Notes under the pieces: model-generated
Told to the model about the DNA's origin: nothing
The model's input: the letters and a program-made list of their open reading frames with translations, nothing else
The model's database searches: none
Made by a program: the position numbers and the translations under genes
In this document: positions 34,200 to 52,161 of the stretch, in pieces
Layout of the letters: every line of letters starts with the position of its first letter
Numbering within the stretch: the first letter of the stretch is position 1
Source of the DNA: a virus
Length of the DNA: 64,000 bases
Reading direction: 5' to 3' (one strand)
IMG/VR virus record: IMGVR_UViG_3300008120_000016
Span: 60,720 to 124,719 of that record

Positions 34200-34554
34200 G
34201 TTTGATAAATAACTTCTTTTTATCTATAAACTTATAAATAACACCGGTTAAATGACCACATAACCAAGCTTGTGCCTCTTCATCTGATATTCCTCTGTCT
34301 TCAGTAACTCTTACAACAGCGTGATATACTTCATGAGCTATTGTGTTATGTGATAAATATTTACTATCTATTATTAAATAATACTTGTCAATATCCGGAG
34401 AAACTAATATACCTTCACTTTCTCCATCATCTTCTGAGTTTTTTAGTTTATATTTTTTGTCAAGTTTTTTTACAGAAGCATTTAATTGATCTGTAATTGA
34501 AAAAACTACACTACAATTATACGTTTCTAATTTTATGGTTAATGATATTTTCAT
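34192..34554 (-). CDS. Small HExxH zinc metallopeptidase-like protein
   Basis: This 120-aa protein has the motif HEVYHAV at about residues 78-84. A downstream acidic helix (ISDEEAQAWLCGHLTG) could supply the third ligand (Glu), as in gluzincins. It lies between a ring protein (TAATG overlap at 34554) and the muzzle gene (8-base overlap), so it is tightly coupled to tail assembly. It could process a tail or cargo protein, or be a structural relic of a peptidase. Function is inferred from the motif. Confidence 0.65.
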   Translation of the reverse strand: MKISLTIKLETYNCSVVFSITDQLNASVKKLDKKYKLKNSEDDGESEGILVSPDIDKYYLIIDSKYLSHNTIAHEVYHAVVRVTEDRGISDEEAQAWLCGHLTGVIYKFIDKKKLFIKHG

Positions 34555-35417
34555 TAATAACCGTCTTGAGTTTTAAACATGTTATAGTATTTGTGATAAA
34601 TACCTTTTCGGTTTAATTCCCAATTTTTCTTCAGCTCAGAGAAATTAGGAGTATTAACAATTGACAATGCGTTATTTCTAGCTACTCGTAATCTTTGCTC
34701 AACTAATTGCATTTTTTGCCCTACGTCTTCTCCATTGATATATAAGTTTTCTAAAAGACGTTGTTTAATAGCATACTCATAATATTCATTAATCATTGGA
34801 TGATCAAGAACTAAAAGATTTCCTTCATCATCTTCTAATGCTCCTTGATATGAAATAAATATTTTACCATTATCTATATTAGTATAAATAAATCCATTTT
34901 TAATGTACCCAATATTACCTGACTGAGTATCATCTAAAGCATCGCATTTTCCAGAACTGGTAGCAATTTTAATTCTATCAAAAGTTTCATATATCCTTGT
35001 TTCAGTTTTTCTTTTTTCTACAACCTGTACGTATATCTTTTCTCCATTTTGACACTCTTGTACATATGTAGCTTCACATTCACATTCAGTGTTACATCCA
35101 CATTTAGGACAATGATCCATTATAACATTTTCGGTTTCTCTACCAGCATTTGCTCTATACGTTACTTTATAAGTAGAGCACATATAAGCATAGTTTAAAA
35201 CATAAAAATCATCTGGTAATTTTACCTTTCGTTTTTCAACTTCAAGAAGTTTCTCTTTAGTTCCGTGAATTCTTAATCCTAAATCATAATTTATTTTTTG
35301 AGCTATTTTAATTAACTGAGAAGGTTCAATTAAACCTTCATTATTATACATTGTAAAGTCTATGCTAACCTCGCCTAAAAGGTCATTAAAAGTTCTATAT
35401 TGTAACTCAGTGTTCAT
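34554..35417 (-). CDS. Tail ring/adaptor protein with Cys cluster
   Basis: This 287-aa protein belongs by position and pattern to the crAss-like ring (tail barrel) proteins. The N-terminus (FNDLLGEVSIDF) and C-terminal helices (YEYAIKQRLLENLYINGED, then QRLRVARNNAL) are typical of gp4/gp11-like connector proteins. Near residues 100-125 it has HCPKCGC and CECE, a compact Cys/His cluster that could bind zinc or form disulfides. It shares one-base TAATG overlaps with both neighbours, implying coupled translation at fixed ratio. Which ring position it fills cannot be decided from sequence alone. Confidence 0.7.
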   Translation of the reverse strand: MNTELQYRTFNDLLGEVSIDFTMYNNEGLIEPSQLIKIAQKINYDLGLRIHGTKEKLLEVEKRKVKLPDDFYVLNYAYMCSTYKVTYRANAGRETENVIMDHCPKCGCNTECECEATYVQECQNGEKIYVQVVEKRKTETRIYETFDRIKIATSSGKCDALDDTQSGNIGYIKNGFIYTNIDNGKIFISYQGALEDDEGNLLVLDHPMINEYYEYAIKQRLLENLYINGEDVGQKMQLVEQRLRVARNNALSIVNTPNFSELKKNWELNRKGIYHKYYNMFKTQDGY

Positions 35418-36091
35418 TATCTAGCTATATTTTGTTTATCAATTGCAGTATCAACCGGTACTTGATACATTCCTAATAAATCTTTTACAACATAACCTTC
35501 TAACTCTGCTAATAAATAATCCGGTACATTGAAAGATTGATCATGCTTGACTAAACATTCATCTTCTTCACAAGTCCATTTACTTATGTCATCTTCAAAT
35601 ATTCCTTCTATACGTATAGCGTCCCATTCTAAATTTGGAAAATATAAGTAGTCATTTAAATACCAATAGTATTTTGTTTTGTTATATTTAAAATTTTTAG
35701 AATTTGCTACATGTATATAACTGCTTGGAAGAATTGGTTGCAATTCTTCAGATGCATCTAATGAACTTACAGTTCTAATCAATGGTCCAAAATACCCCTG
35801 TAAAAAAACAGGAAGCTTTTCTTTTGTACGTTTAATAGTACAATCTGATTTAATACCAGTACAACACGCTTCAACTTTATCAATTTCAATTAATTCTACA
35901 AAATCCATTGTTTGAATTACGGCAGAAAAAGCCATTAATTTACTTTTAGAATCTTCACGTTTCATTAAAAACTTTGCATTTTTTAATACAAACGTGTAAA
36001 TCATTCTATCAGTTAAAAGAGCATCTTGCTTATCTCCTTTTACTTGACTTCTTATTCTTGAAACAATTTCTCCAATAGTATTTTTAGCCAT
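35417..36091 (-). CDS. Tail ring/adaptor protein
   Basis: This 224-aa protein starts MAKNTIGEIVSRIRS and includes LLTDRMIYTFVLKNAKFLM, which resembles the N-terminal helix region of P22-gp4-type head-tail connectors. A beta-rich middle and a C-terminal helix (VPDYLLAELEGYVVKDLLG) follow. Several Cys are spread through it (EACC, WTCEEDECL). It precedes the second ring gene with a TAATG overlap and follows the conserved 194-aa gene by one base. Assigned as a ring protein of the tail barrel by synteny with crAss-like tail modules. Confidence 0.68.
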   Translation of the reverse strand: MAKNTIGEIVSRIRSQVKGDKQDALLTDRMIYTFVLKNAKFLMKREDSKSKLMAFSAVIQTMDFVELIEIDKVEACCTGIKSDCTIKRTKEKLPVFLQGYFGPLIRTVSSLDASEELQPILPSSYIHVANSKNFKYNKTKYYWYLNDYLYFPNLEWDAIRIEGIFEDDISKWTCEEDECLVKHDQSFNVPDYLLAELEGYVVKDLLGMYQVPVDTAIDKQNIAR

Positions 36092-38043: not shown

Positions 38044-38829
38044 TTATTCTTTGCATGGTCTAGCTAAATGCTTATATCCCAAAAAATCAACATACTTTCT
38101 AGTATCCGGAACACTCCAATATTCACCTAAAAAACTCATGTTTTTTTCATAGTGTCCCATATCTCTGTTAGTATAAATATGATGCAAGTGTAATAATTCA
38201 GCATCAATTCTATATTTTTTTAAATTAAGTGCAGAACATTTGTGAGCAAACGCATCATCTTCAGCCCCCCATCCTTTAAATCTTTCATCATACCCACCAA
38301 TACAATAAAAATTTTTAGCACTTAAAATATTTACACCACCGTGTATATTAACAATATACTCTAATTTTCTGGTTTTTTCGTTATTTCCTGTATTAATATC
38401 TTCATTATTTACAAAGTTTTTTGTCTCATCTTCTGACATATAATACATTGCATCTTTAAAAGGTAGAACAAAATAGTCGTCAAAATACTCATAGTATTCT
38501 TCAATGTTTTCAAGTACTTTTTTTTCTATTAAACAATCAGCATCTCCAAATATTATGTAGTCAGCACAAAAAGATGATTGACTTATATTGTAACCTATAT
38601 TAAACAAAAAACCTCTGTTAAAATGATCATCGTTTGTGTTAACTTTAAAATGTTTATGATAACAACCTGATACCTCACTCATATCAGTTTTTGAATCTTG
38701 CTCTACAATTATAATCTTACAATCTTTTAAAAATCTATTATAATACTTGATAGTATAAAATAAATTTCTTTTTCTATCAGGTGTAGAATACCTAAAAGGT
38801 ATAACAACACATATTTGTTTTTTATCCAT
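38044..38829 (-). CDS. Glycosyltransferase, GT-A fold, galactosyltransferase-like
   Basis: This 261-aa enzyme shows VIPFR, FNRGFLFNIGY, GDADCL (DxD metal/nucleotide-sugar site, near residue 95) and then GGYDERFKGWGAEDDAFA near 180-197. The last motif matches the C-terminal acceptor/catalytic region of beta-1,4-galactosyltransferase-like (GT7/Glyco_transf_7C) enzymes. The predicted reaction is transfer of a hexose or N-acetylhexosamine from UDP-sugar to an acceptor in the cytoplasm. It is last in the four-gene cassette, immediately after the FkbM gene (TAA directly followed by ATG), and is followed by a strong terminator. Acceptor unknown; the Thr-rich adhesins upstream are candidates. Confidence 0.82.
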   Translation of the reverse strand: MDKKQICVVIPFRYSTPDRKRNLFYTIKYYNRFLKDCKIIIVEQDSKTDMSEVSGCYHKHFKVNTNDDHFNRGFLFNIGYNISQSSFCADYIIFGDADCLIEKKVLENIEEYYEYFDDYFVLPFKDAMYYMSEDETKNFVNNEDINTGNNEKTRKLEYIVNIHGGVNILSAKNFYCIGGYDERFKGWGAEDDAFAHKCSALNLKKYRIDAELLHLHHIYTNRDMGHYEKNMSFLGEYWSVPDTRKYVDFLGYKHLARPCKE

Positions 38830-39429
38830 TTAAAACCAAGTATTAATTTTACAACCTAATTTTGTTAAATCAGATATGATTTCATTTTTTGTATCGACAG
38901 ATTCTTTTGGATACATTCTTCCTTCATGAAACTCTACATAAAACTCTTTAATTTTAGAAGCAGTGTTTTCTTTAATCATTTTTCTTAAAATTTCAAACTC
39001 TGCTCCTTCAATATCTAGTTTGCATATTATATGAGAATCATTTGGTAAATCATTTACAAATTTGCTAAGATCAATACTAGGAATTGTAACTTGTGTTTCA
39101 TATCCTAAATGATTAAATCCAATTCCTTGTATAGATGACCCCCACCCATCAATGTTTGAAGCACCATCGGTTGGAGAACCACTTCCACTTTTAGTATGAT
39201 TTTCTTGATTAAATGTAACAATTCCATCTTCTACCCAAACAGCTTTGTTAAAAGAAGTTATATCTAATGAGTATTTGTTACGAAGTAATTCAACTCTTTC
39301 TTCAATAAAGCAAGCTGGATTAGCTTCAAATGAATAAATTTTATAATCTGTAGTAATTATTCCATTGTTTATAAAATATTCCAATCCTTCTCCGTGATGA
39401 AATCCACAATCTAAAAATATTTTTTTCAT
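38830..39429 (-). CDS. FkbM-family SAM methyltransferase
   Basis: At 199 aa this is a compact FkbM (Methyltransf_21) protein. LDCGFHHGEG is the SAM-binding motif I, YSFEANP is the acidic post-beta2 motif, CKLDIEGAEFEIL is the hallmark KxDIEGxE motif, and FYVEFHEGRM follows. Members O-methylate sugars or polyketides. It lies between two glycosyltransferases, which suggests it caps a glycan made by them. Methyl caps commonly end chains or mask them from enzymes and antibodies. Its ATG at 39429 is preceded by AAACCAA, a leader word shared with several other genes here. Confidence 0.85.
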   Translation of the reverse strand: MKKIFLDCGFHHGEGLEYFINNGIITTDYKIYSFEANPACFIEERVELLRNKYSLDITSFNKAVWVEDGIVTFNQENHTKSGSGSPTDGASNIDGWGSSIQGIGFNHLGYETQVTIPSIDLSKFVNDLPNDSHIICKLDIEGAEFEILRKMIKENTASKIKEFYVEFHEGRMYPKESVDTKNEIISDLTKLGCKINTWF

Positions 39430-39431
39430 TA

Positions 39432-40082
39432 TTATTGGTTTATTAAAAAGTTAGAAGTTGAAATGTTTTTACCATGAATGTGCCAGATGATATTTTCTCG
39501 ATTATCAATTTCTGCTATATTACAATTTTTACACCAAGCATCCCTCCACATATGATCTTCAAATCCATAAATTGATTCAGATTCTAATACACACTTTAAT
39601 CCCTTTTTATTAAAAGCAAATGTAGGTGGCATATTAAAATCACAACCTTCTGGATTACCACCTAAGTTTGGTGCATTGATCCATCTTAAAATAGCTCCAT
39701 TCAATTGATATTTTATCTTAGATGACACAACATCTACAGATGGATTATTTTGAAAAAATTCTACTATTGTTTTAACATAATCTTTTTTGTAAATATCATC
39801 ATCGTCTATTTTAACAAACAAATCATAATTATCAAAATCAACTGATATAATTGAATTTGTGTAATTAAAATGTTGATGTTTATTTTCATTAATAACAATG
39901 TTTACATCATCTATATCATCATACAATATAGTATAGTCAGTATAATCATCTGCATCATGTGCAATATTAATAGAATGGAAAAGATTCTTATAGCTTTGAT
40001 TTTTAATATCAGCTATAGTACCCCTTAGCATTTTGTGTCTTTTGTAACTTGTTGTAAAGCACAATACTTTTAAATCAGACAT
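39432..40082 (-). CDS. Family 2-like glycosyltransferase
   Basis: At 216 aa it starts LKVLCFTTSYKRHKMLRGT and has FVKIDDDDIYKKDYV (DxD-type site near 114-118). A late YGFEDHMWRDAW segment recalls the acceptor-site ED motif of GT2 enzymes. It is shorter than typical GT2 proteins, so it is probably a minimal catalytic domain without membrane anchors. Its start overlaps the end of the 306-aa gene by 13 bases, showing a tight operon. It probably acts in the host cytoplasm on a protein or a soluble acceptor. Confidence 0.78.
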   Translation of the reverse strand: MSDLKVLCFTTSYKRHKMLRGTIADIKNQSYKNLFHSINIAHDADDYTDYTILYDDIDDVNIVINENKHQHFNYTNSIISVDFDNYDLFVKIDDDDIYKKDYVKTIVEFFQNNPSVDVVSSKIKYQLNGAILRWINAPNLGGNPEGCDFNMPPTFAFNKKGLKCVLESESIYGFEDHMWRDAWCKNCNIAEIDNRENIIWHIHGKNISTSNFLINQ

Positions 40083-40990
40083 GAAATTTCTTTGGTTTTT
40101 AATAATTCTTCAACGTATTTGTAAGAACAAGATTGAGGATTTATATTTTCAAGTTTTACATCGTTATAAGGAAGATTTGTAAAATACGCTGCTTTAAAAA
40201 ATAAATCTTTTCTATCTTCTGTCACACCAGCATTATGAAATATAGGTGCCTCATTCCATCTATCAATGTAACAAGTAGCCCAACAAAAATCTAATCTATT
40301 ATCAACTCTTGTTGGATGACCAAACTTCCAAGCATTCCATAAAAGTGACCACATTCCTGCAGTCCACTTTTGAATAGCATACCCTTCACCTTTATAATTT
40401 GGTTCAGTATCACAAAAATGTTTGTAAAGTTTTATAGAATCTTTTTCAACTTTATCCCAATATTCAGGTGTAGTATTTTTTACAATATGCTGAGCACCTC
40501 CTGAATTTGGATTCATAATTCTAGGAATTAAAGGATCCATTTCCATTACACGACACATATCTAAATAAACATCTTCACCCTTACCAAAAATATAGTTATA
40601 ACCAATATAACCCACAGTATCACTTAAATACCAAGTATTATGGTATTCCATATCTTTAAAATTAACAGGTCTTGTGAAAATTATATCACAATCATGTAAA
40701 AACAAAGGCTGCGTAGTTAATTCAGGATAAGCAGTAAGATGCTGCTTCATTAAATTAAAATAAACAGAAGGAATGTAAAAGTGATCTTCTCTAGTATCAG
40801 GATAAAAAAAGAAACCAACATTATTATAATGTTGTTGTAGTTTTAACCAATCTGGAGGAACTTGCCCATAATGGGCACAAAGAATATTAATATCATTTGG
40901 ATTAACACCGTTTCTAATAAAGTTGTTAATCATTATTTCTACCTGCCATGTATAGTATGGTATAGCAGGTTGTGCACAAATAAACTTCAT
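40070..40990 (-). CDS. Putative glycosyltransferase (GT-A-like, DxD)
   Basis: This 306-aa protein is first in the sugar cassette. It has LFLHDCDIIFTRPVNF near residues 96-111 (DxD), an NSGGAQHIV loop, an AGMWSLLWNAWKFGH helix and IFHNAGV near the C-terminus. The order resembles GT-A enzymes of the hydroxyproline/serine glycosyltransferase type, which add the first sugar directly to a peptide. That family link is a weak, by-eye resemblance. It overlaps the next gene by 13 bases. Upstream lie the short adhesin-type genes, starting only 21 bases away. If it is a peptidyl transferase, the nearby Thr-rich proteins are obvious acceptors. Confidence 0.6.
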   Translation of the reverse strand: MKFICAQPAIPYYTWQVEIMINNFIRNGVNPNDINILCAHYGQVPPDWLKLQQHYNNVGFFFYPDTREDHFYIPSVYFNLMKQHLTAYPELTTQPLFLHDCDIIFTRPVNFKDMEYHNTWYLSDTVGYIGYNYIFGKGEDVYLDMCRVMEMDPLIPRIMNPNSGGAQHIVKNTTPEYWDKVEKDSIKLYKHFCDTEPNYKGEGYAIQKWTAGMWSLLWNAWKFGHPTRVDNRLDFCWATCYIDRWNEAPIFHNAGVTEDRKDLFFKAAYFTNLPYNDVKLENINPQSCSYKYVEELLKTKEISCLI

Positions 40991-41010
40991 ATATGTTGGT
41001 TTTTATTATT

Positions 41011-41142
41011 TTAAGCAGGAACAGCTGCTGATTGCGTAAGTCCTACAGCTTCAGCATATTTAAGATAGGTTTCAACACTGGCTTCTATAGTAATGCAACA
41101 ATTGGCATTAGGATTAATTGTTGTAGTTGTAGTAACTGGCAT
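41011..41142 (-). CDS. 43-aa tail-module peptide carrying shared C-terminal tag
   Basis: A short frame from ATG 41142 encodes [16 protein letters not shown] followed by [19 protein letters not shown] and a VPA end. The last 21 residues match the C-termini of the 108-aa and 152-aa proteins directly upstream except for one I/V change. Codons differ between copies, so protein sequence is being conserved. It consists of a mini Thr run plus the tag. Role unknown; the tag could be an assembly or docking module of the adhesin set. Confidence 0.7.
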
Positions 41143-41160
41143 GTTTTTTAATTTTAATTA

Positions 41161-41487
41161 TTATGCAGGAACAGCAGCTGACTGCGTCAAACCAACTGCC
41201 TCTGCGTATTTAAGATATGTTTCTATGCTTGCTATTATATTATCAGGAGTACACCTCCATGTAAAACCTTTATCTAAAAGTTTGTTTATTATTCCCATAG
41301 TATCAGTAACACTAATATTATTGTCATTAACAAATTTTAATAATTTGCAAACAATTCCTTCACCATTTACGGTATTACTTTCAACTAATCCCCTATCTAA
41401 AATAGTTAGATAATTAACCGGTCCTACAAAAGCTTTTAAATCTTCAATGCAATTGTAAGTACAACAAATAGGTCTTTGAGTTGGCAT
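41161..41487 (-). CDS. Small tail-module protein with shared C-terminal tag
   Basis: This 108-aa protein starts [20 protein letters not shown]. It is helical, with a central [14 protein letters not shown] segment that also occurs (as LDLLLDKGI) in the 152-aa neighbour. It ends in [17 protein letters not shown] plus AVPA. The N-terminal half loosely resembles the 'Cys-hydrophobic-KGD-helix' N-terminal domain of the large adhesin-like proteins upstream. No enzyme motif. It sits between the 43-aa and 152-aa tag-bearing genes, with gaps of about 20 bases. Confidence 0.72.
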
Positions 41488-41506
41488 AATTAATAATTTT
41501 TATAAG

Positions 41507-41965
41507 TTAAGCTGGCACTGCTGCACTTTGAGTTAAACCAACAGCTTCAGCATATTTTAAATAAGTTTCAATAGATGCAAATGTATAATCAGTATTTACA
41601 CCACAATCAGGACAGCATATATTACAAACAGTTGATACAATCCCTTTATCTAAAAGTAAATCAAGAACTTCAGTCCAACTAATAGTAGGATCGGCCACTT
41701 TAGAAGCTTTCATTTGATCAAACAATATATCAAAAGGACTTGTACAAGGTAAATCTAAATCTACATAATCATCACACCCTGCTTTTTTTATACGAATTGT
41801 ATTAGCTGCATCAGGTATTGTATTAGTTGTATATCCAGATATCATATCAGCTTTGCTAATACCGGAATCAAAAGGATTTAAAAAACCATCAGCATCAGAA
41901 AACAAAGAAAAAGTTGTATCAGATGATCCTGCTAATGTTAATTTTATTGTTGCAGATTTTGGCAT
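41507..41965 (-). CDS. Small tail-module protein: type-B N-domain plus shared tag
   Basis: This 152-aa protein has an N-terminal beta domain (KSATIKLTLAGSSDTTFSL, later IRIKKAGCDDYVDL) similar to the N-domains of the 384-, 476- and 272-aa proteins (type B here). LDLLLDKGI, a Cys cluster (CNICCPDC), and the tag [17 protein letters not shown] follow. It therefore links the large adhesin set to the tag-bearing small proteins. It may be an adaptor that joins both. Confidence 0.72.
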   Translation of the reverse strand: MPKSATIKLTLAGSSDTTFSLFSDADGFLNPFDSGISKADMISGYTTNTIPDAANTIRIKKAGCDDYVDLDLPCTSPFDILFDQMKASKVADPTISWTEVLDLLLDKGIVSTVCNICCPDCGVNTDYTFASIETYLKYAEAVGLTQSAAVPA

Positions 41966-41998
41966 ATATTATAATTTTATAAAGGTATGTAATTATTT

Positions 41999-42817
41999 TT
42001 ATCCACAAAGTACCCAATTCCAAATTAATGGATCTAAAGTTCCTATTTGTTGTAATGTTAATGTTATAAATATACTTTGACCTGGTGCAACTGTAGAAGT
42101 TGGAGCAGGTATTATACCACCTTGATCACACAAAAATGTAGGACTATCTTGAACACTTGCACTTATATTTTCTAAAATTACACAAACACAATCTCCACCA
42201 ATTGGAGGAGTAGTTGTAGTTGATGTTGTTGAACTACAAATAGGTATTGTATTTGGAGACACTGTAAAATTAGTTAATGTCCATGTTTTAATACTATTAG
42301 GATCATTACAATCTAAAAGTGTTTTAGTTACATAATTTTGACTAGCAGAAATTGATCCTGTAGGTATAACTAATGATTCAGTAGTAGGAGAACCAATACT
42401 AGGAGTATAAGTAAAACTTAACGTAATCGGAAAAGGAGCAGGTGTAGGTAATCCATTAATTGTATATGCTATACCTACTGGTGCAAATTCTTCATCAAAC
42501 GAACCACCACATATTTTTGTAGATCCTGTTCCTAAACTTAGTACCAAACATTGAATCAATGAAGGTGTAGTTGTACTAGTTGTACCAGGATTAAACGGAT
42601 TAGTTATAGAAATAGTTATTGGATTTGTACAAGCTCCTACAGATGTTAAAGTAACACTTGTTGCAGTAGGATCGGTTAATGTAAAAAGTTCCCCTCCTCC
42701 CAAAAGACCTGCAGCTGTAGCAGTAGTAGGATTTATAGATCCCACATTTGGAGAAATTGTAAAAGTAGGTCCTAAACCAGAACCTAGAGGACTATTTAAT
42801 TGTACTAATATATTCAT
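41999..42817 (-). CDS. Modular adhesin-like tail protein (type B), 272 aa
   Basis: Residues 1-75 form the type-B N-domain (LGPTFTISPNVGSINPT). A 90-residue beta domain (APFPITLSFTYT ... WTLTNFTVSPNTIPIC) is clearly paralogous to one in the 704-aa protein. A Thr linker and a Cys-framed domain (CVCVILENISASV ... WNWVLCG) follow. No catalytic motif. Fibre or adhesin decoration is inferred from domain style and position between fibre genes and tail barrel genes. Confidence 0.72.
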   Translation of the reverse strand: MNILVQLNSPLGSGLGPTFTISPNVGSINPTTATAAGLLGGGELFTLTDPTATSVTLTSVGACTNPITISITNPFNPGTTSTTTPSLIQCLVLSLGTGSTKICGGSFDEEFAPVGIAYTINGLPTPAPFPITLSFTYTPSIGSPTTESLVIPTGSISASQNYVTKTLLDCNDPNSIKTWTLTNFTVSPNTIPICSSTTSTTTTPPIGGDCVCVILENISASVQDSPTFLCDQGGIIPAPTSTVAPGQSIFITLTLQQIGTLDPLIWNWVLCG

Positions 42818-42830
42818 TTTATATTAATTA

Positions 42831-43847
42831 TTATGGAACACAATCAAGATTGTTTGCACATGTTACTACACCACCGTTAACTACTATACCTAACTCAGTT
42901 ATAGCTGGTACTGTTTCAGAACAAACATAATCTGTAGTATTGCCTGCAAGAGAAACAGTGGTAAATCCAGAACCACCACATTGAGTATACTGATAGTTAA
43001 GTGGATCAGGAGTAGTATTTTCTACTGAGTAACATTTGCAAGGCGATGATGTTGTAGTAGAAGTTGTTGGGAAAAAACAATCAGGACATCCAGGACAAGA
43101 TGAACCAGTTGGCAACCATACCGCTGTATTACCATAACGAACAGTTGGTGGAATACATCCACAAACACATTTATATGTAATACTTCCTACTGTATCAATT
43201 GATACCCATTGACCTGTAACACAATCAATATATTCAGCAGCAGGTAGAGAACCACCAGCCATACTACTTGTTTGTGTTATTGTTATATCATATGCTTTAC
43301 ATTGAAGTGATCCTGGTGGACAACCAACACAAAGACTTGGGTCTATTATTATTGGTTCGTCAATAGTTGTAGTGGTTGTTGGAGCTGGAGGTATTGTTGT
43401 TGGAGCTTGTGTTGTTGGAAGAACAACGAAAGCACTACCACCATTATAAGTACAAGATACTGTTGTAGTACTTGTAGTAGAACTAGTAGTTGTGCTAGTA
43501 GAACTAGTAGTTGTAGTTGGTGCAATTGTTGTAGTTGTTGTTAAAATAGTAGCAGTCAATGTGCCAAATCTACAATCTCTTAATGTTGTTGTAGCTACTG
43601 GTCCTAATTTACAAATCTCATCATTAATGATTTGTATAATTTCACATAAAGTTGTACCATTTTTTATACCATAACATAGTAAATCTTCTCCTATATATCT
43701 TACACATTCGCAATCATACAACTCATCACATTGTTCTCCAATACAAGGAATAGTAGTTGTGCTTGTTGTACTAGTTGTAGTACAAGGTTTGTGACACGGA
43801 TTCGGATCACAACCACAACCAGAATTACATCCACAATTACATGACAT
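42831..43847 (-). CDS. Modular Cys- and Thr-rich tail protein (type A), 338 aa
   Basis: The N-terminus is extremely Cys-rich (MSCNCGCNSGCGCDPNPC) and is followed by a Thr run. The type-A domain is next (CVRYIGEDLLCYGIKNGTTLCEIIQII), then a long Thr/Ser/Ala/Pro linker near residues 105-185. The C-terminus includes several Cys-framed small domains (CKCYSVENTTPDP ...). The Cys may bind metal or form disulfides after release. A virion surface role is inferred. Confidence 0.72.
   Translation of the reverse strand: MSCNCGCNSGCGCDPNPCHKPCTTTSTTSTTTIPCIGEQCDELYDCECVRYIGEDLLCYGIKNGTTLCEIIQIINDEICKLGPVATTTLRDCRFGTLTATILTTTTTIAPTTTTSSTSTTTSSTTSTTTVSCTYNGGSAFVVLPTTQAPTTIPPAPTTTTTIDEPIIIDPSLCVGCPPGSLQCKAYDITITQTSSMAGGSLPAAEYIDCVTGQWVSIDTVGSITYKCVCGCIPPTVRYGNTAVWLPTGSSCPGCPDCFFPTTSTTTSSPCKCYSVENTTPDPLNYQYTQCGGSGFTTVSLAGNTTDYVCSETVPAITELGIVVNGGVVTCANNLDCVP
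43370..43560. repeat. Triplet-rich Thr/Pro linker tract in the 338-aa gene
   Basis: Imperfect GTA/GTT triplet runs (coding strand ACT/ACA) encode Thr/Ser/Pro linker residues. Repeated units such as ACTAGTAGTT occur several times. Confidence 0.7.
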
Positions 43848-43885
43848 TTTTATAAATTTTTATTACTTTAAAAAAATACTAATTA

Positions 43886-45316
43886 TTATCCACATTCAAA
43901 AAATGTATTTACCCAACCAGGACCAGGTTCAGTACTATTACCTACACCATAACAAATACGTCCTCCAGGAGCTACAATCTGAGCTACTTTAAGAACACCA
44001 TTACAATCTTTGTAATTTATAGAAAGTGGTGCATTTGTTACATTTTGCCATTGTTCACAACCAATACATGTTGCAGGAGCAACAGTCCAATCTCCAGTAG
44101 CTTGTAACAATAATGCTTGTATACCGGTAATTTGAATTATATCAGAACCTCCATTTGCAATTGGCCCTGGTGGAAGATAATCCTGTGCACATAGTAAATT
44201 AGGATAATCTACTGTTAATTCTATTGTAGAACCAGAAATATTTGTCACTTCATAACATTTACATTGATCATCGAAAACTCTTGCTGTAGTAGTTGTTGTT
44301 ACAAGACTACCTGCATTACAAGTATTTACAACACTATGTGTTTTAAGTGTACCAACAGAATCTTTAAAAACCATCCAATAAGTCCCGTCAGGTAAAGGAG
44401 TACCTGGAACTAAACCACCTGGAGCATAAGCAAAACTTCCTTCAGGACCTAGCAATGTCCAATCTGTATTTGCTAAAGCACCTGCTTCAGTTGAAAAAAC
44501 AAAAGGAGATGCTGAATAAGGAGGAACTCCTCCAACAGTACGAGCTATATCAACACGGAAGTTTACTCCACTACAATAAGTTCTGTAGACAAAATCAAAA
44601 GGAATAAATATAGTTCCATTTGTTGTTGTTGCTGTAAAACATGATCCTGTTATATTACCGGTTACATCAATATTAACTTGAGGAGCACCTGCTCCAGCAA
44701 TTCCTATTGTACCAGTATACCCTAATGGAACAGGTGGATCAAACTTAACATAAATTACTTTTGGGTTTGGATTAATAAATCCACCACTTGATGAATTAAA
44801 TGTAATACTAGTTGACCAAGGACCAGTTACAGATTCAGATATACCAAATACTATTGTTGGTGATTGTATAATAATATTACTATTTGGAAATAAATTTTGT
44901 CCTGTTAATGTAAATGATTTAATCCACGGAGTTCCAGGAATAACACAAGGATCAAAAAATTCAATTTGATTCACGTTAGACTGAATTACTCTTCGTGAAG
45001 AAATTGTGGTAGTAGATGTTGGATTTCCAGAAGATGTTGTGGTACTTGTTGTATCTTCAATTACACAACATCTTAACGGCTTACCACATAATCCTTCTAT
45101 TGTAACTTTTTTACTAGAACTGCATTGACCTCCTGTTGATTGTAATGTTATATTTTCAACATTATCATCTACAGTTACAATAGCTCCTGTAGGAGATAAT
45201 AAATCAATTAATGTAACTTGTGTAGGAAAAACAGTTCCTACGTTAGGAATAACATTAAATGTTGGACCTATTGAGGAACCACTTGGTAAATCTGTTATTT
45301 TTAATACTACTTGCAT
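43886..45316 (-). CDS. Modular adhesin-like tail protein (type B), 476 aa
   Basis: A type-B N-domain (SIGPTFNVIPNVGTVFPT) is followed by short Thr/Ser linkers. Two Ig-like beta regions come next (LTGQNLFPNSNIIIQSPT; then YCSGVNFRVDIARTVGGVPPYSASP, broken by turns). C-terminal Cys-framed domains carry CKCYEVTNISGSTIEL, CIGCEQWQNVTNAPLSI and a WVNTFFECG end. The middle contains PKVIYVKFDPPVPLGYTGTI, typical of Ig-like adhesin folds. Function inferred as cell-surface or glycan binding. Confidence 0.72.
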   Translation of the reverse strand: MQVVLKITDLPSGSSIGPTFNVIPNVGTVFPTQVTLIDLLSPTGAIVTVDDNVENITLQSTGGQCSSSKKVTIEGLCGKPLRCCVIEDTTSTTTSSGNPTSTTTISSRRVIQSNVNQIEFFDPCVIPGTPWIKSFTLTGQNLFPNSNIIIQSPTIVFGISESVTGPWSTSITFNSSSGGFINPNPKVIYVKFDPPVPLGYTGTIGIAGAGAPQVNIDVTGNITGSCFTATTTNGTIFIPFDFVYRTYCSGVNFRVDIARTVGGVPPYSASPFVFSTEAGALANTDWTLLGPEGSFAYAPGGLVPGTPLPDGTYWMVFKDSVGTLKTHSVVNTCNAGSLVTTTTTARVFDDQCKCYEVTNISGSTIELTVDYPNLLCAQDYLPPGPIANGGSDIIQITGIQALLLQATGDWTVAPATCIGCEQWQNVTNAPLSINYKDCNGVLKVAQIVAPGGRICYGVGNSTEPGPGWVNTFFECG

Positions 45317-45334
45317 TAATTAAATATTTATAAA

Positions 45335-47449
45335 TTAATCACAACCACCAGGAAGACATTGTATAGAAATACTAACACTATCAGTTGGATTTATAATAAC
45401 ATTTGGTACTTGTACAACTGGTTCAAATGTGAATTGTTGTGAATAAGTTGTTATGTTTCCAAATGTATCTGTAACTTCTACATACATTATTCCACAATTT
45501 CCTGTTCCTGGAGTATTACTATTAACATTTAATTGTATCAAATTAGTTGATCCAAAATTAATTACAGTATTTGTAAGACTTATAAAGCCAGATTGAGTAT
45601 TTGTTAAAGGATATGGTGCTGATAAAGTTAAATTATTACCATTTATACTAGAACTTAGTATACTACCACCACCACAATTTTCATTTCTTACAGTGACAGT
45701 AGCAGTACCACCAGTACCACCTGATGAACTAGTAGTTGTAGTTGGAGCAAATGGTCCATTGTATGCTAATTGATTTGATGGCACACTAGAACCATTAGAA
45801 CAAATTTGAACAATTCTAAATAATGTCGGTCCTGTAGGAATGGTAAATAAACGAGGTGATGTACAACTTCCTGTAAAACTACTCCATGTAGTTCCACCAT
45901 TAGTTGAACTTTCAATTGTTATGGCTTGACATGGTAAACAACCAGCACTTGTATCAGTGGTAAAATTAAGACTTAAATCACTTCCATTATTAACTATACT
46001 ATTAAATGTTGGAGCACAACAAATTTCATTTGCAGGACAAAATACAGAACTTACAAAACTAACACTCCAATCACCTGAGCTTGCTAAAGCAGAAGCTGTT
46101 GATGATGATATTTCTACTCTACAAGTATCTCCAGGTGCAACAACACCGCAATTTAAAGTACTTGTTCTACAAAATATTGCAGGACCGGGATCTATTGGGC
46201 TTTGACTAATATTTGTTATATCGTAACAATTACATCCACTAGGAGCAGCTGTTGTAGTACTAGTAGTTACAGTACTGCATAAAGGAATTGTACCAGGAGA
46301 TAAAACAAAGTTTGTTAATGTCCATGTTGTTATAGTATTTCTTTCTGTACAATCTAAAATTGTTCTTATTAGCCATTGATCACTTGCAGATGATGCACCT
46401 GTTGGTATAGTTAAATTTTCTACTGTAAATCCACCTGTAGAAATTGTATAATCAAAGCTATAAGTAATTGGGAAAGGTGCTGGTGCAGGAACTCCTCCCA
46501 CTAAATACATTATTGTTAAAACTCTAGTTTGTTCTAGTAAATCTTCACAAACATCACTATTTACTATATTACTAGCAACAACAACACAACCCAATGGTGG
46601 AGCTGCTGTGGTAGGAGCAGATGTAGTTGGTGCTGCTGTGGTAGGTGCTGCAGTAGTACTAGTCGTAGGAGCAGCTGTCGTAGGAGCACTAGTAGTTGGA
46701 GCAGCTGTTGTTGGTGCAATAGTTGTACTGGTTGAAGTTGTTTGACAATCGCCATCATCATTACATAGTACATTATTTGTATTAGTTATAAATTCATCTC
46801 CTGGTTCAAGAGAAACAATACTATTTTGTTTAGCACATATGTAAATTGTTTCAGTGGCATCAACATAACCATTACTATCTTGCCCTTCACAATTTTTATA
46901 AGTAAAATTTACACCATCTGTATTTGGCCCAGCATATACACTATAGCAATAACATGGTGCTGCTGTTGTCGGGGCAACTGTTGTACTAGTTGTCGGTGCT
47001 GCTGTAGTCGGAGCAATAGTGGTAGTACTAGTTGTGGGAGCTAAAGTTGTAGTAGTTGGTGCAACAGTTGTTGTTGTAGGTATACTAGTAGTAGTTGTAA
47101 TTGGAGGATTATTTAAACAACCAATAGGACCACTATATCCCGTTATACTACCAAACAATCGACAATCATTTATTACAAGATAACCATCTATAACACAATT
47201 AAGAGTAGTAGTTGTTGTTAAACAATTATCTAACCCTAATATTTGAATAATATTTTGAAAAACTTTTGTTACTCTATCACCTTTAACAACATTAATACAA
47301 TTAAGATTTCTTCCTGAATAAATGACACAATCAGACGATACAACAGTTTCGCATTCAGGAGGACATGTTGTAGTAGTACAAATTAAAGAAGATGCCACTG
47401 GTTTACAGCAACACTCTTTATTTTTTATTGGACCACAAGTACAGGACAT
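45335..47449 (-). CDS. Large modular mucin-like tail protein (type A), 704 aa
   Basis: It starts MSCTCGPIKNKECCC, then has the type-A domain (CVIYSGRNLNCINVVKGDRV). At least two long linkers made almost only of Thr, Ala, Pro and Ser follow (about residues 115-165 and 240-290). Between them is a CYCYSVYAGP Cys-framed domain. The central beta domain (APFPITYSFDYT ... TTWTLTNFVLSPGTIPLC) is shared with the 272-aa protein. A fibronectin-like segment and an Ig-like C-terminus follow. This is the richest mucin-like protein in the window and the strongest candidate for O-glycosylation by the neighbouring cassette. Confidence 0.75.
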   Translation of the reverse strand: MSCTCGPIKNKECCCKPVASSLICTTTTCPPECETVVSSDCVIYSGRNLNCINVVKGDRVTKVFQNIIQILGLDNCLTTTTTLNCVIDGYLVINDCRLFGSITGYSGPIGCLNNPPITTTTSIPTTTTVAPTTTTLAPTTSTTTIAPTTAAPTTSTTVAPTTAAPCYCYSVYAGPNTDGVNFTYKNCEGQDSNGYVDATETIYICAKQNSIVSLEPGDEFITNTNNVLCNDDGDCQTTSTSTTIAPTTAAPTTSAPTTAAPTTSTTAAPTTAAPTTSAPTTAAPPLGCVVVASNIVNSDVCEDLLEQTRVLTIMYLVGGVPAPAPFPITYSFDYTISTGGFTVENLTIPTGASSASDQWLIRTILDCTERNTITTWTLTNFVLSPGTIPLCSTVTTSTTTAAPSGCNCYDITNISQSPIDPGPAIFCRTSTLNCGVVAPGDTCRVEISSSTASALASSGDWSVSFVSSVFCPANEICCAPTFNSIVNNGSDLSLNFTTDTSAGCLPCQAITIESSTNGGTTWSSFTGSCTSPRLFTIPTGPTLFRIVQICSNGSSVPSNQLAYNGPFAPTTTTSSSGGTGGTATVTVRNENCGGGSILSSSINGNNLTLSAPYPLTNTQSGFISLTNTVINFGSTNLIQLNVNSNTPGTGNCGIMYVEVTDTFGNITTYSQQFTFEPVVQVPNVIINPTDSVSISIQCLPGGCD
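46600..46740. repeat. Triplet-rich mucin-like tract in the 704-aa gene (second linker)
   Basis: Tandem imperfect copies of a unit reading PTTAAPTTS on the coding strand. Related units also lie at 46955-47100 in the same gene. Confidence 0.72.
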
Positions 47450-47467
47450 TTATTAAAATTTTAAAAT

Positions 47468-48622
47468 TTAAGGTGATGTGGTTGTTGAACAATATAGATT
47501 TGGTTGATCACAAGGGAATCTTTCAAGATCAAAACATGTTTGACTACCTACAGCATCAACAAGTGAACAAGGTGCACCAGGTAGATTAACTTCAGCACAA
47601 CAAATCTTTGTCTGGGTAAAGCCACCACTACGTGTTGTTGATGATGTAGTTGTAATTGCAGGACACCCGTTAATTGCTGTTATTACACCACTACCATTTA
47701 CTGTCATACATTTTATACCTTCCGAATAGAATCCACCAGTAACTGGAATTGTCATTGCAACATTTGTATATAAAATGCAACCTACTGCTAATGGAGCAGG
47801 ACATGGACTGTAATATTGAGATATAAGATTACCACTACAATTACATGCACTAGATGTAAAGTTATTTGGATCACATGTTTGTATACTATAACATAAATTA
47901 TGTATTGTTACAGGACGTGCTGTACTAGTTGTTGTTTCAGGAGGTAAAGTAGTAATAATACTTCCTGTTGTTGTATTAGTAACTCCACAAAATCCAAAAC
48001 AAGGAACATTTCCTACTATAGTAAATCCTTGACCTAAAATTGAGCCTTGAGCAGCACAAAATTCTTTTGTACTATCTGCAGCTATTGTTCCTGTTTCTGA
48101 ATTACCATCGCAATTTAAAAATGTGTAAGATCTATTTGGAAAACCAAAAGGATCTGTATTAGCTATTGTATAACATCTACATACAATTGGAGCAGCTGTA
48201 GTTGGTGCTAATGTAGTTGTTGGTGCTGCGGTAGTAGGGGCTGCCGTAGTTGGAGCTATTGTAGTTGTACTTGTAGTTGGTGTTGCAGTACTTGTACTTG
48301 TAGTTGGAATTATAGGTATTGTAGTAGTTGTAGTTATACCTGATGATGTTGTAGTTGTAACAACAGGAATAGTACCTGGTGTAACAGGTACAGTTTTGTC
48401 AACATAATAATCATTACATAGTTGACTTTTTGATTTTAATCTAACTTTTACTACATCATTTGGTACAGATATAGTATACCCACCTGGAGGTAAAAATGAT
48501 GATTTTGGAACATTGGTAGGCCCGTTTCCTATAACAACTCCTAAAGCATTTAAATAGAATACATCATACGGACCCAAGTCCGTACCTGATATAGTCATTA
48601 ATATATTTATAAGTTTAGCCAT
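47468..48622 (-). CDS. Modular mucin-like tail protein (type B), 384 aa
   Basis: A type-B N-domain (INILMTISGTDLGPYDVF ... VVKVRLKSKSQLC) is followed by a Thr/Pro/Ala linker at about residues 90-145. A Cys-framed domain (CRCYTIANTDPFG) comes next, then a second Thr stretch and a C-terminal Cys-rich segment ending CSTTTSP. The linker is encoded by imperfect triplet repeats, so its length may vary between relatives. Confidence 0.74.
   Translation of the reverse strand: MAKLINILMTISGTDLGPYDVFYLNALGVVIGNGPTNVPKSSFLPPGGYTISVPNDVVKVRLKSKSQLCNDYYVDKTVPVTPGTIPVVTTTTSSGITTTTTIPIIPTTSTSTATPTTSTTTIAPTTAAPTTAAPTTTLAPTTAAPIVCRCYTIANTDPFGFPNRSYTFLNCDGNSETGTIAADSTKEFCAAQGSILGQGFTIVGNVPCFGFCGVTNTTTGSIITTLPPETTTSTARPVTIHNLCYSIQTCDPNNFTSSACNCSGNLISQYYSPCPAPLAVGCILYTNVAMTIPVTGGFYSEGIKCMTVNGSGVITAINGCPAITTTSSTTRSGGFTQTKICCAEVNLPGAPCSLVDAVGSQTCFDLERFPCDQPNLYCSTTTSP
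48180..48350. repeat. Triplet-rich mucin-like tract in the 384-aa gene
   Basis: Tandem PTTAAPTT-type units, encoded by GTAGTT/GTTGGT-like repeats on the plus strand, related to the tracts in neighbouring genes. Confidence 0.7.
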
Positions 48623-48631
48623 TTTTTACAT

Positions 48632-50629
48632 TTATGGTATTGGAGGTCCATCTAATGGTGGACAAATGGGATTTGTAGGATCTGTAGGAATTTTTGTTAT
48701 AAACAACCATTTATTTTGTACTACAGATGTCATTGTCCAATCAACAGATGTTCCAAGTATAGGGTATGCTGGCGGAGTAATAGCTGTTATATAACCATAT
48801 AATGTACCACCTGCTACTGTGTTATTTCCTAAGTTTGCACCTATTTCCCATCTATTTGCCGATAGATTAAAATAAACATATGCGATAGGAACTGTAGGAA
48901 CATTAAATACAATATCTGTTATTGTGTAATAAGGTTTTCCACCAAATAAAGTAATCGATCCTGTATAATTTACGTAGTTTTTACCAGCTTCTCCAGTATC
49001 AACTACAAAACATAACTTTATAGGACAACCAGTATAATTACTACATTCACCATTAGTGTACACTATAGGAGTACCAAATACACCAAAGTTTGGATATTCG
49101 ATATTTCTATTAGTGATTGTACAGAAACCAGCATAGTTAGTACCTGCTTCTGCAATTGTCCATTCTGCAAATTCACCATTACAAGTAGTATAAGTTCCAG
49201 TTCTAGGATTACTATCTGGATATTCTACAATTACACAATTACAGCATTGACCAAGCGAAGTTTCTTTAATATATTGTCCTGTTGAAGTAACAACAGTCCA
49301 TGTACCTTCCAATGTTGATGAAAGTAAATATCCTACTAAAGTACCTGAAGTTGCATTAACTCTTGCTTCCCATCTAAAACCAGTCCAAAAAACAAGTAAA
49401 ACATCAGGACCACTTGTAAAATTCCAAGTGTAAGCATATTTACCATTAATTTTTTGTATGTACCCTGAATCATCTATATAAGGTATTCCAGTGGAAAAAG
49501 GTTCAATACAAGGAGGTCCACCATCATAAGGTTCAACACAAGGAACTTTTCCGACAGCACAAATTAAATCAGGACATGGTCCTTGTTGAGAAACTGCAAC
49601 ACCCGTTTTATCACAATCATCAATATCACCAATACATTGCCATCCTGTAATCCCACTTATTGGAACATAAGTAGTTGTATTTAATATATAAACAAGAGGT
49701 GGTTTTGGAGGGGGTTGTGTAATTGTCCATTCCCATCTATTATTTGTATTTGACCATATAATTGTCATAGGAAAACCACCATATGTAAATGAATAAGATG
49801 GTTTATTATTTGTAATACCTGTTTGAGTAATTGTTTGACCTTCACCTGCACCTCCCAAAGAAGGAAGACCAACAGCTTCACCTGCAATACTAACACATAA
49901 TGATGTAATACATCCTACACTTATTGATACCTCACCAAAAGCTTTATCACAATTACTATTAAAACCACTTGGATTATATACACATGTCCATGGTGTTGTA
50001 TTGGATATTGGTGTTGGAGTATCATCATCTAAATACGCATAAAAAGAGGTTACTGTATTATTATCATTACAATCTAATAAAACCCTCCATGTTTGTGATG
50101 CAGTATCCCATTTTACACATCCATTTGCTGCAAAAGTATAAATAGGTTTACCATTTTCTATACCATTTACTTCTAATATTTCAGTAAATGGTGCACTTGC
50201 CGATCCTCCGTCAAAACTTATACATAATGGTTCAGGTACAGCTGTAGTAGTACTTGTTGTAGGGGCAGCTGTTGTAGGTGGTATAGTAGTCGTTGTAGGT
50301 GCTATAGTAGTTGTCGTAGGTGGTATAGTAGTTGTCGGAGCTATTGTAGTAGTAGGAACAGATAATAATGTAACAGCAATATCAAAATAACAACAACGAT
50401 CTGGAGGAAATAACTTTGCTAATATTTTAAATATAATATCACAAAGAGGGTCGCCTTTTTCTATAAAAGAACAGGGATAATCTGATCCTGCCCATTTAAC
50501 ACAACATATATCAATAACATCATCTCCACATGGATCTTTCGGATTACAATCTGGTAAGCATGTTACACCAGGTGGTAAACAAAAAGCACAAGGATCACAA
50601 TTTGGAGATTTGTTACAAGTACAAGACAT
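48632..50629 (-). CDS. Tail protein with type-A domain, Thr linker and four repeat domains, 665 aa
   Basis: The N-terminus (MSCTCNKSPNCDPCAFC) precedes the type-A domain (CVKWAGSDYPCSFIEKGDPLC) and a Thr/Pro linker near residues 93-137. Four successive domains of about 100 residues follow, each with an NGKPxYxF-like strand, a RWEW/RWEI-like strand and a closing Cys region. The repeated Trp/Tyr strands resemble small beta sandwiches of adhesins. It probably presents several binding sites on a flexible stalk. Confidence 0.75.
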   Translation of the reverse strand: MSCTCNKSPNCDPCAFCLPPGVTCLPDCNPKDPCGDDVIDICCVKWAGSDYPCSFIEKGDPLCDIIFKILAKLFPPDRCCYFDIAVTLLSVPTTTIAPTTTIPPTTTTIAPTTTTIPPTTAAPTTSTTTAVPEPLCISFDGGSASAPFTEILEVNGIENGKPIYTFAANGCVKWDTASQTWRVLLDCNDNNTVTSFYAYLDDDTPTPISNTTPWTCVYNPSGFNSNCDKAFGEVSISVGCITSLCVSIAGEAVGLPSLGGAGEGQTITQTGITNNKPSYSFTYGGFPMTIIWSNTNNRWEWTITQPPPKPPLVYILNTTTYVPISGITGWQCIGDIDDCDKTGVAVSQQGPCPDLICAVGKVPCVEPYDGGPPCIEPFSTGIPYIDDSGYIQKINGKYAYTWNFTSGPDVLLVFWTGFRWEARVNATSGTLVGYLLSSTLEGTWTVVTSTGQYIKETSLGQCCNCVIVEYPDSNPRTGTYTTCNGEFAEWTIAEAGTNYAGFCTITNRNIEYPNFGVFGTPIVYTNGECSNYTGCPIKLCFVVDTGEAGKNYVNYTGSITLFGGKPYYTITDIVFNVPTVPIAYVYFNLSANRWEIGANLGNNTVAGGTLYGYITAITPPAYPILGTSVDWTMTSVVQNKWLFITKIPTDPTNPICPPLDGPPIP
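50225..50360. repeat. Triplet-rich Thr/Pro tract in the 665-aa gene
   Basis: Alternating TTTIAPTTT and PPTTTT units near residues 93-137, coded by imperfect triplet repeats. Confidence 0.7.
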
Positions 50630-50631
50630 TA

Positions 50632-52161
50632 TTATCCATTATTTAAACATTCGCAATATCCAGGTAAACTAGAATATGTTATAGTAGCACTAGGTTGTCC
50701 TGATGTTATACTAACAGTTGTATTACATTGTATACACGCTGTAAAATTTGTTGGAGTTGAGGCATCAACTGCTTCAATTACTTTTGAAAACAATGTTCCA
50801 TCAGGTCCTGAATATTCAACAACTAAATTTTCATTTGGTAAATGAGGTGCTGGTATTATTGCTAATCTACCATTCACTAATGCATTCAAAAGAGGATTTA
50901 ATGGATATACAAAAGTCGTAGTTGTTGGAACAGGATTATTAAATGATTGTATTTGTTTAGTAACAGTTTTACTACAAACTGTTCCTTTGTATTCTAAACA
51001 TCCTGTAACTGTAATTGTCCAAGGAACTTGAACATTTAAATTTTGAATATTTATTGTTAAACCAGTTGGTGATTCTGCAGCAGTTTTTAAATTAAATGTT
51101 TCTGTATAAATAGCACCATTACCATCAGATACTTGTATTGTAGACATTGTTGCACAATTACTAAAATACGACGGAATTGTACAATATGAATTAAAAACTA
51201 TATTAATAGTACCTGATTCTATAGTTCTATAAGCATTAAAACCTAACACAAAACTACTACAATCTACGGTAATTGATCCTTTTAAATCAACAACTGCAGC
51301 TCTTATATCACACACTGTTAACCATAAATTTTGCAAAGATTGACCTAAATTATTTACAACAGGATTCCAACCTGGTATATTACTCATTAAGCCATTTTGA
51401 CTTAAAGCATTATAAGAAGATAAATAAGTACATTGTTGACCAACACCGGAATTTAGTTCTGTATTGTTACCGAGAATTTCTCTCAAACGACAAAATTCTA
51501 CATCTATTTCTTGTAACATTGTTACAATAGAAACTGGATTATTAGCAACCAATGTTCCAAAACTGCAAAAAGGAGTTACAGAAGGTAATTCAAAATCTGG
51601 TTTTAACTCAAGTGTATTAATTCTAGTTTCGTGATTTTCAATTTGACTTGTATGAGTATTAACAAGAGTTTTAAGTGTGCAATATGAATTTGCAAGTAAT
51701 ACAGCATAATCACTTATTGGTAAAGACGTGATTAACAAACCTGTATTAGAATCAGTGTATTGTAAACATTCTGGAAGAACTAACTCACCACTTGAACTAA
51801 AACCATCTTCAAAAGCAAATGATTTTGCAAATGATTGAACCATTGGCATTGCTCCACCCCCACCTCCACTACAACATACTTTATCTATAAGTAATTGAAG
51901 TATTGCACTTAAAGTTTTTGCTGGAGGAACAGCTTGAGGACCACAATAAATATCATTTATTAAACATGTTACATCTACATCATCTAATGAAACACTATTT
52001 TGAAAATCACAAACAATTGTAGCAAGTTTATAAACAACATCAGAAACAGAATCACCTTTACATAAATTAATGCAAGATATGTCTGGTCCTTGCCATATCA
52101 CACAATTAGATGATATAGGTAGGCAATTTTCTTTTTCTGAACTTGACCTTACAGGTTTCAT
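50632..52161 (-). CDS. First type-A tail protein, 509 aa
   Basis: Near residues 18-50 it shows the type-A domain (NCVIWQGPDISCINLCKGDS VSDVVYKL, split here). A Gly-rich turn (GGGGG near 100) and helices containing LLANSYCTLKTLVNTHTSQI follow; these look like a trimeric coiled coil of a fibre. C-terminal beta domains end in GYCECLNNG. It lacks the long Thr runs of its downstream relatives. It begins the type-A/B block and may anchor it to the virion. Confidence 0.72.
   Translation of the reverse strand: MKPVRSSSEKENCLPISSNCVIWQGPDISCINLCKGDSVSDVVYKLATIVCDFQNSVSLDDVDVTCLINDIYCGPQAVPPAKTLSAILQLLIDKVCCSGGGGGAMPMVQSFAKSFAFEDGFSSSGELVLPECLQYTDSNTGLLITSLPISDYAVLLANSYCTLKTLVNTHTSQIENHETRINTLELKPDFELPSVTPFCSFGTLVANNPVSIVTMLQEIDVEFCRLREILGNNTELNSGVGQQCTYLSSYNALSQNGLMSNIPGWNPVVNNLGQSLQNLWLTVCDIRAAVVDLKGSITVDCSSFVLGFNAYRTIESGTINIVFNSYCTIPSYFSNCATMSTIQVSDGNGAIYTETFNLKTAAESPTGLTINIQNLNVQVPWTITVTGCLEYKGTVCSKTVTKQIQSFNNPVPTTTTFVYPLNPLLNALVNGRLAIIPAPHLPNENLVVEYSGPDGTLFSKVIEAVDASTPTNFTACIQCNTTVSITSGQPSATITYSSLPGYCECLNNG

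Follow-up and report, generated by a model that had tools for sequence, protein, structure and literature searches.

Virion glycosylation has so far been documented for a few actinobacterial phages. Glycosylated capsid and tail tube proteins of Che8 and Corndog are reported in PMC12363180, and that paper and PMC13313380 cite Freeman et al. (2023) for virion O-glycosylation of Che8, Corndog and Myrna. Corndog carries an O-methyltransferase and three glycosyltransferases (GTs) (PMC4351075). The cassette of the mycobacteriophage Che8 consists of a GT2+methyltransferase, gp109 (a homolog of the GT7-like enzyme described below) and a third GT. The general O-glycosylation system of Bacteroidota is a periplasmic host system that places O-glycans on Ser/Thr in the sequon D-[S/T]-[A/I/L/M/T/V]. 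No description of a link between poly-threonine and phage glycosylation was found in the literature searched, which took in few of the subscription papers and preprints.

A glycosyltransferase cassette beside Thr-rich genes

The stretch of DNA analysed here (64,000 nt, called the window) is positions 60720-124719 of a 124,719-base IMG/VR virus record. Genes for crAss tail ring proteins 1 and 2 lie beside the cassette (Table 1), and matches for a large structural protein occur in csAssE-Sib, Cellulophaga phi17:2 and a Leptolyngbya phage. On these matches the phage is a Crassvirales relative (crAss-like). The cassette has four minus-strand genes (38044-40990) that overlap their neighbours or lie 0-2 nt apart. 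The first-pass annotation had described it as a tight operon of three GTs and an FkbM methyltransferase, and all four open reading frames were recovered within the stated interval, on the minus strand. The spacing of 21 bases that it gave between the cassette and a Thr-rich block is correct within one base, since a 43-aa ORF ends 20 nt before the start of the 306-aa gene.

Table 1. Positions of the ring, cassette and Thr-rich genes in the window, and of probable frameshift sites in related loci.
Feature	Position	Strand	Evidence or remark
crAss tail ring protein 1	34554-35417	minus	Pfam CrAss_Ring_1, E 3.5e-15
crAss tail ring protein 2	35417-36091	minus	Pfam CrAss_Ring_2, E 4.1e-22
261-aa Glyco_transf_7C/GT2-like glycosyltransferase	38044-38829	minus	Pfam above cut-off
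199-aa FkbM-type methyltransferase	38830-39429	minus	Pfam PF05050, NCBIfam TIGR01444
216-aa GT2-like glycosyltransferase, KIDDDDIY motif	39432-40082	minus	PHROG, sub-cut-off Pfam, model
306-aa predicted GT-A glycosyltransferase, phrog_4417	40070-40990	minus	PHROG profile and predicted fold
43-aa ORF	41011-41142	minus	T5 run at N-terminus
108-aa ORF	41161-41487	minus	C-terminal module common with 43-aa and 152-aa ORFs
152-aa ORF	41507-41965	minus	C-terminal module common with 43-aa and 108-aa ORFs
272-aa putative tail protein	41999-42817	minus	17.6% Thr, short T4 run
338-aa putative tail protein	42831-43847	minus	Thr tract 43449-43568
476-aa putative tail protein	43886-45316	minus	12.6% Thr, short runs only
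704-aa putative tail protein	45335-47449	minus	two Thr/Pro/Ala tracts, strongest 46976-47107
384-aa putative tail protein	47468-48622	minus	Thr tract 48230-48358; weak PHROG minor tail match, E 0.0076
665-aa putative tail protein	48632-50629	minus	Thr tract 50237-50353
509-aa putative tail protein	50632-52161	minus	one T4 run only
Probable programmed frameshift sites (CCCAAAA -1; CCC-TAA/TAG +1)	L088 7740-7830; L089 7640-7720; L106 5700-5790; L104		

Two of the cassette assignments are above the family cut-offs. The 199-aa protein matches FkbM PF05050 in Pfam (E 5.9e-9, 36.7 bits against a cut-off of 22.7) and TIGR01444 in NCBIfam (E 1e-16, 61.7 against 37.7 bits), and the 261-aa enzyme matches Pfam Glyco_transf_7C/GT2-like at 43.6 bits (cut-off 23). 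The 216-aa enzyme falls just under the Pfam GT2 cut-off of 23.3 bits (21.5 bits, E 2.4e-4); it has a PHROG glycosyltransferase match (E 2e-5) and, from a mediocre model (pLDDT 65), matches to GT2 folds that include GtrB and ArnC.

A strong Thr tract in this block was defined as a 20-aa window with at least 11 Thr. Such tracts occur in four genes, those of the 338-, 704-, 384- and 665-aa proteins, in which Thr makes up 13-20% of the residues; the 272-, 476- and 509-aa proteins have merely short T4-5 runs. No strong tract was found outside the block in the genome stretches examined. The 'tail' label is positional, given by the location between the crAss ring genes and a tail-fibre-like gene, and apart from the weak minor tail match no family match was found for these proteins. 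The earlier observation of a sugar cassette next to genes for putative tail proteins with long Thr-rich linkers holds. A motif C-x-C-[YV]-x-[IV] recurs in the Thr-rich proteins encoded at 41999-50629 (e.g., CKCYEVTNIS, CNCYDITNIS and CRCYTIANTD) and probably marks a repeated small domain. The three consecutive small ORFs next to the cassette end in the same C-terminal module with one change. This module was found in no other locus searched, and it is perhaps an assembly tag that underwent recent tandem duplication.

Predicted fold of the 306-aa enzyme

The 306-aa enzyme matches phrog_4417 ('unknown function') with an E value of 1.6e-71, residues 1-299 of 306 aligning to profile positions 1-291 of 293. 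Searches gave no Pfam family match and no sequence match among PDB structures. Foldseek comparison of its AlphaFold2 model (pLDDT 95.5, pTM 0.92) to the PDB returned GT-A folds (best E 1e-7; 194 matches at E<=0.001), GT8-like in character, with the UGGT catalytic domain (GT24), WbbM, LARGE1, LgtC and glycogenin among the matches. The DxD motif is D100/D102 and is invariant in 42 homologs. On the predicted structure and the motif, the enzyme is confidently a member of the GT-A superfamily. It does not qualify by sequence as a member of CAZy GT8 or GT24, its likeness to these being by fold: UGGT, glycogenin, LgtC and LARGE1 have the GT-A fold and DxD in common with it, whereas identity is about 8-14% and TM about 0.5. 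Glycogenin and UGGT are protein-acting enzymes. The structure search for peptidyl glycosyltransferases proposed by the first-pass annotation ended at UGGT/GT24, glycogenin and GT8-like enzymes and did not reach any named peptide O-GT family.

Comparison with described glycosylation systems

The mycobacteriophage system resembles this one in its phage-encoded GTs plus methyltransferase and in one homologous enzyme: Che8 gp109 and the 261-aa enzyme are 23% identical (E 3e-11 in a two-sequence comparison). It differs in other respects. The essential GT of Che8, gp110, is GT25-like, and hhalign found no relation between it and the 306-aa family (probability 0.2%); the major capsid protein (MCP) and major tail protein (MTP) of Che8 have no poly-Thr tails; and the Che8 cassette genes are far from its structural module. 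The host group of Che8 is also different. Because gp109 is related, gp110 is unrelated and the Che8 proteins are without poly-Thr, the cassette is, as judged by sequence comparison, a system of the mycobacteriophage kind in a different variant, with a predicted initiating enzyme family and acceptor tag of its own. The 306-aa enzyme was also tried as a relative of gp110 or gp109, and no relation was found.

The likeness to Bacteroidota general O-glycosylation is in the O-glycans on Ser/Thr proposed here. That system acts in the host periplasm, whereas the enzyme here is phage-encoded and grouped with virion genes. Host sequon-directed O-glycosylation was rejected for this locus, as no D[ST][AILMTV] occurs inside the Thr tracts of the window.

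Linkage of the enzyme to threonine tracts across phages

Relatives of the 306-aa enzyme were collected from IMG/VR (153, 80 kept), phage records (74) and bacterial-genome loci (37). After dereplication at 90% identity, a Thr-rich gene was found immediately upstream of 75 of 85 enzymes, compared with 87 of 1115 other genes in the same loci. Ten enzymes are exceptions. In L038 and L053 the GT2 homolog is interposed, and L046, L078 and L131 have tracts slightly farther off. The others (L023, L031, L032, L051 and L071) have no Thr tract near the enzyme. The first-pass annotation had named a cassette found in relatives without Thr-rich proteins as grounds for refuting self-glycosylation; such a situation is confined to about five unexplained loci of 85. 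The tight link to Thr-rich genes belongs to the 306-aa enzyme; the accompanying GT7, GT2 and FkbM genes are accessories that vary.

In Bacillota prophage loci (L110-L144) Thr runs are upstream of the enzyme in 35/35, with two or more Thr-tailed genes in 22 of 32 dereplicated loci. In isolates the virion gene with poly-Thr sits directly upstream, and the tag is on or beside the MTP or MCP. The major tail protein of Enterococcus phage phiFL1A has the C-terminus GTTTTTSTTTTTTSSTTTTTTTQASSK and its gene overlaps the enzyme start; in Lactococcus phage P1046, ...VTTTTTTTTTTHHD stands immediately before the enzyme; and the major capsid protein of Enterococcus phage 4995_1 ends in ...GTTTTTTKPTTTTTTTQA. 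Poly-Thr tails on two or three structural genes of one phage (L110-L144 and L275) often share their last residues (e.g., ...SA, ...GGA, ...SHA in R3.3), as if copied or matched.

In other phages the tag is out of frame. Planchet and VFW have a Thr-rich -1 frame after the capsid stop, with CCCAAAA at this place in Planchet. The tail protein of Staphylococcus-type phages stops at CCC-TAA/TAG, and poly-Thr continues in the +1 frame. Programmed frameshifts that would add poly-Thr to only some of the capsid or tail subunits are probable. Programmed frameshifts of the Listeria phage PSA type extend the MCP and MTP. The shifty stop at the MTP end of the Staphylococcus-type phages is similar, whereas the extension here is poly-Thr and adjoins the enzyme, and the frameshifting is read from sequence only.

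Joint presence and absence of enzyme and tracts

Homologs of the phiFL1A MTP have a poly-Thr tail in 4/4 enzyme carriers and in 0/16 non-carriers, the enzyme being searched for over whole records (Fisher p 2e-4, uncorrected for phylogeny). The carriers are phiFL1A, L091, L093 and Lacticaseibacillus phage R3.3, and the last three also have a tract at the position of the capsid gene. Among the non-carriers, none of which has the tail, are close relatives (e.g., L094 and, in Coetzeevirus, phiJL-1, ATCC8014, Bassarid and Sabazios). A genus-restricted search for further tail-protein homologs gained few.

These results bear on the possibility that the GTs alter the host surface (O-antigen, capsule or wall) and so block superinfection or change the receptor, the Thr genes being mere neighbours. 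Phage GT genes often act in this way (Gtr systems), and the model of the GT2-like enzyme matches GtrB and ArnC among others. We nevertheless consider it quite unlikely. No match to the GtrA flippase (PF04138) was found in the phage genome, the enzyme sits within the late structural module (adjoining the MTP or MCP gene in Bacillota phages), and it occurs where the virion protein itself bears a tail.

A second comparison used crAss-like relatives that had been selected through ring protein 1, without regard to the enzyme. Strong Thr tracts were found in 15/15 enzyme carriers and in 4/57 non-carriers, and those seen in the latter are rich in both Ser and Thr (e.g., TPTGTTTLTGTFSSLTASTT) and are not linkers of poly-Thr. 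On the crAss-like tree the enzyme has to change four times, and the tracts change with it; the well-supported branches provide two independent pairs only, and the phylogenetic test alone is not significant. Over whole records, T5 codon runs number 13-51 in carriers (n=8) and 0-5 in records without the enzyme (n=27, absence checked across the whole record). The co-occurrence of the enzyme with Thr-rich genes, which the first-pass annotation had asked for across related genomes, was thus observed in two unrelated phage groups.

The converse association, from a Thr-rich protein to an enzyme nearby, is weak. The enzyme was present in 8 of 46 Thr-rich phage records, many of them fragments. A GT domain was found beside other Thr-rich phage proteins in 0/58 neighbours (a few/58 in controls), and no other GT family was enriched beside Thr-rich proteins without the 306-aa-type enzyme. 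For many of the long-Thr-tract proteins in viral loci L147-L266, no glycosyltransferase could be recognised up to two genes away.

That Thr-rich phage proteins are common without the 306-aa-type enzyme would fit tracts that are flexible spacers or recombination-prone repeats, with the enzyme hitchhiking in the module. This is very unlikely in our estimate, given the joint presence and absence in homologous MTPs and in crAss-like phages and the appearance of enzyme and tag together on different genes (MTP, MCP and tail proteins). The Thr codon mixture is also normal. It amounts to 1.38 bits in the tracts and 1.37 bits in other Thr codons, and because the two are equal we rejected trinucleotide slippage (a microsatellite artefact) as the origin of the tracts.

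Accessory genes and domain fusions

Downstream neighbours of the enzyme in its relatives encode GT2, GT7C, GT11, GT34 and several methyltransferase families. L033 and L056 have the enzyme domain joined to methyltransferases in one protein, and a homolog of the 216-aa GT2 in L287 (6121-7329) has a weakly FkbM-like N-terminal domain. FkbM itself is rare among relatives of the 306-aa enzyme. The methyltransferase fusions and the accessory gene content support a modular pathway that would include methylation. The methylation step that the first-pass annotation gave to the cassette is thus backed by gene fusions, while its FkbM partner is a variable accessory.

An unusual pairing is the fusion of the enzyme domain to radical SAM/SPASM (L034, L036, L039 and L075), suggesting further modification of the peptide or the sugar. 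These Radical_SAM+SPASM fusions could also be taken to mean that the enzymes modify the Thr-rich peptide otherwise than by a plain sugar chain, the tag being a general peptide-modification substrate; we hold this to be highly improbable, as the fold and DxD indicate sugar transfer and most family members are without a radical SAM fusion.

The Enterococcus phages VPE25 and VFW, which carry the 306-aa-type family, have modified, apparently glycosylated cytosines, attributed by the authors to a T4-like beta-glucosyltransferase gene (PMC4999554). Modification of phage DNA by the cassette is hardly credible, since that modification is assigned to another gene, the genome of the window has no thymidylate-synthase/hydroxymethylase family match, and the poly-Thr link would be left unexplained.

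Proposed pathway and significance

Self-glycosylation is suggested because the 306-aa-type enzyme is almost never seen without Thr stretches across phages. Its proposal for the phage's own Thr-rich putative virion proteins, made in the first-pass annotation, gains support from the co-occurrence in two unrelated phage groups. We consider it likely, from the sequence comparisons and the predicted fold, that the cassette glycosylates the virion proteins of its own phage and that the 306-aa enzyme acts first, on the Thr tracts. In such a pathway, the 306-aa enzyme would be a cytoplasmic GT-A enzyme that adds the first sugar to threonines in Thr-rich tracts; in this phage those would be the linkers in putative tail proteins whose genes lie just upstream within the block. 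Extension of the glycan would fall to the GT2-like and GT7-like enzymes, and its O-methylation to the FkbM enzyme. We infer Thr as the acceptor, the order of the steps and the methylated sugar. Poly-Thr would serve as a portable acceptor tag; in other carriers it forms the C-terminal end of the major tail or major capsid protein. The acceptors would not be limited to adhesins, which the first-pass annotation had named, since in the Bacillota phages the tagged protein is that of the tail or capsid. The mucin-like coat for binding gut mucus or host capsule, also proposed there, gained no support from these comparisons, none of which pointed to a gut source; shielding, stability and adhesion are candidate roles of the glycan.

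On balance, we also favour a broader reading: phrog_4417 may be a new family of peptidyl-threonine O-glycosyltransferases that recognise a poly-Thr tag in phages of Bacteroidota and Bacillota, with interchangeable accessories and with some tags added by frameshift. In this reading the accessories can be GTs that extend the glycan, methyltransferases or radical SAM enzymes, and the targets would be capsids, tail tubes or tail adhesins. The sequence evidence strongly suggests that many unrelated phages sugar-coat their own particles by means of a threonine tag. If so, one enzyme family would mark glycosylated virions in crAss-like, Enterococcus, Lactobacillus, Staphylococcus, Lactococcus and other phages, the acceptor would be predictable from sequence, and phage glycosylation would become testable in cultivable phages. 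It would have a bearing on the encounters of phages with antibodies, mucus and receptors, and it could yield a simple Thr-tag glycosylation tool.
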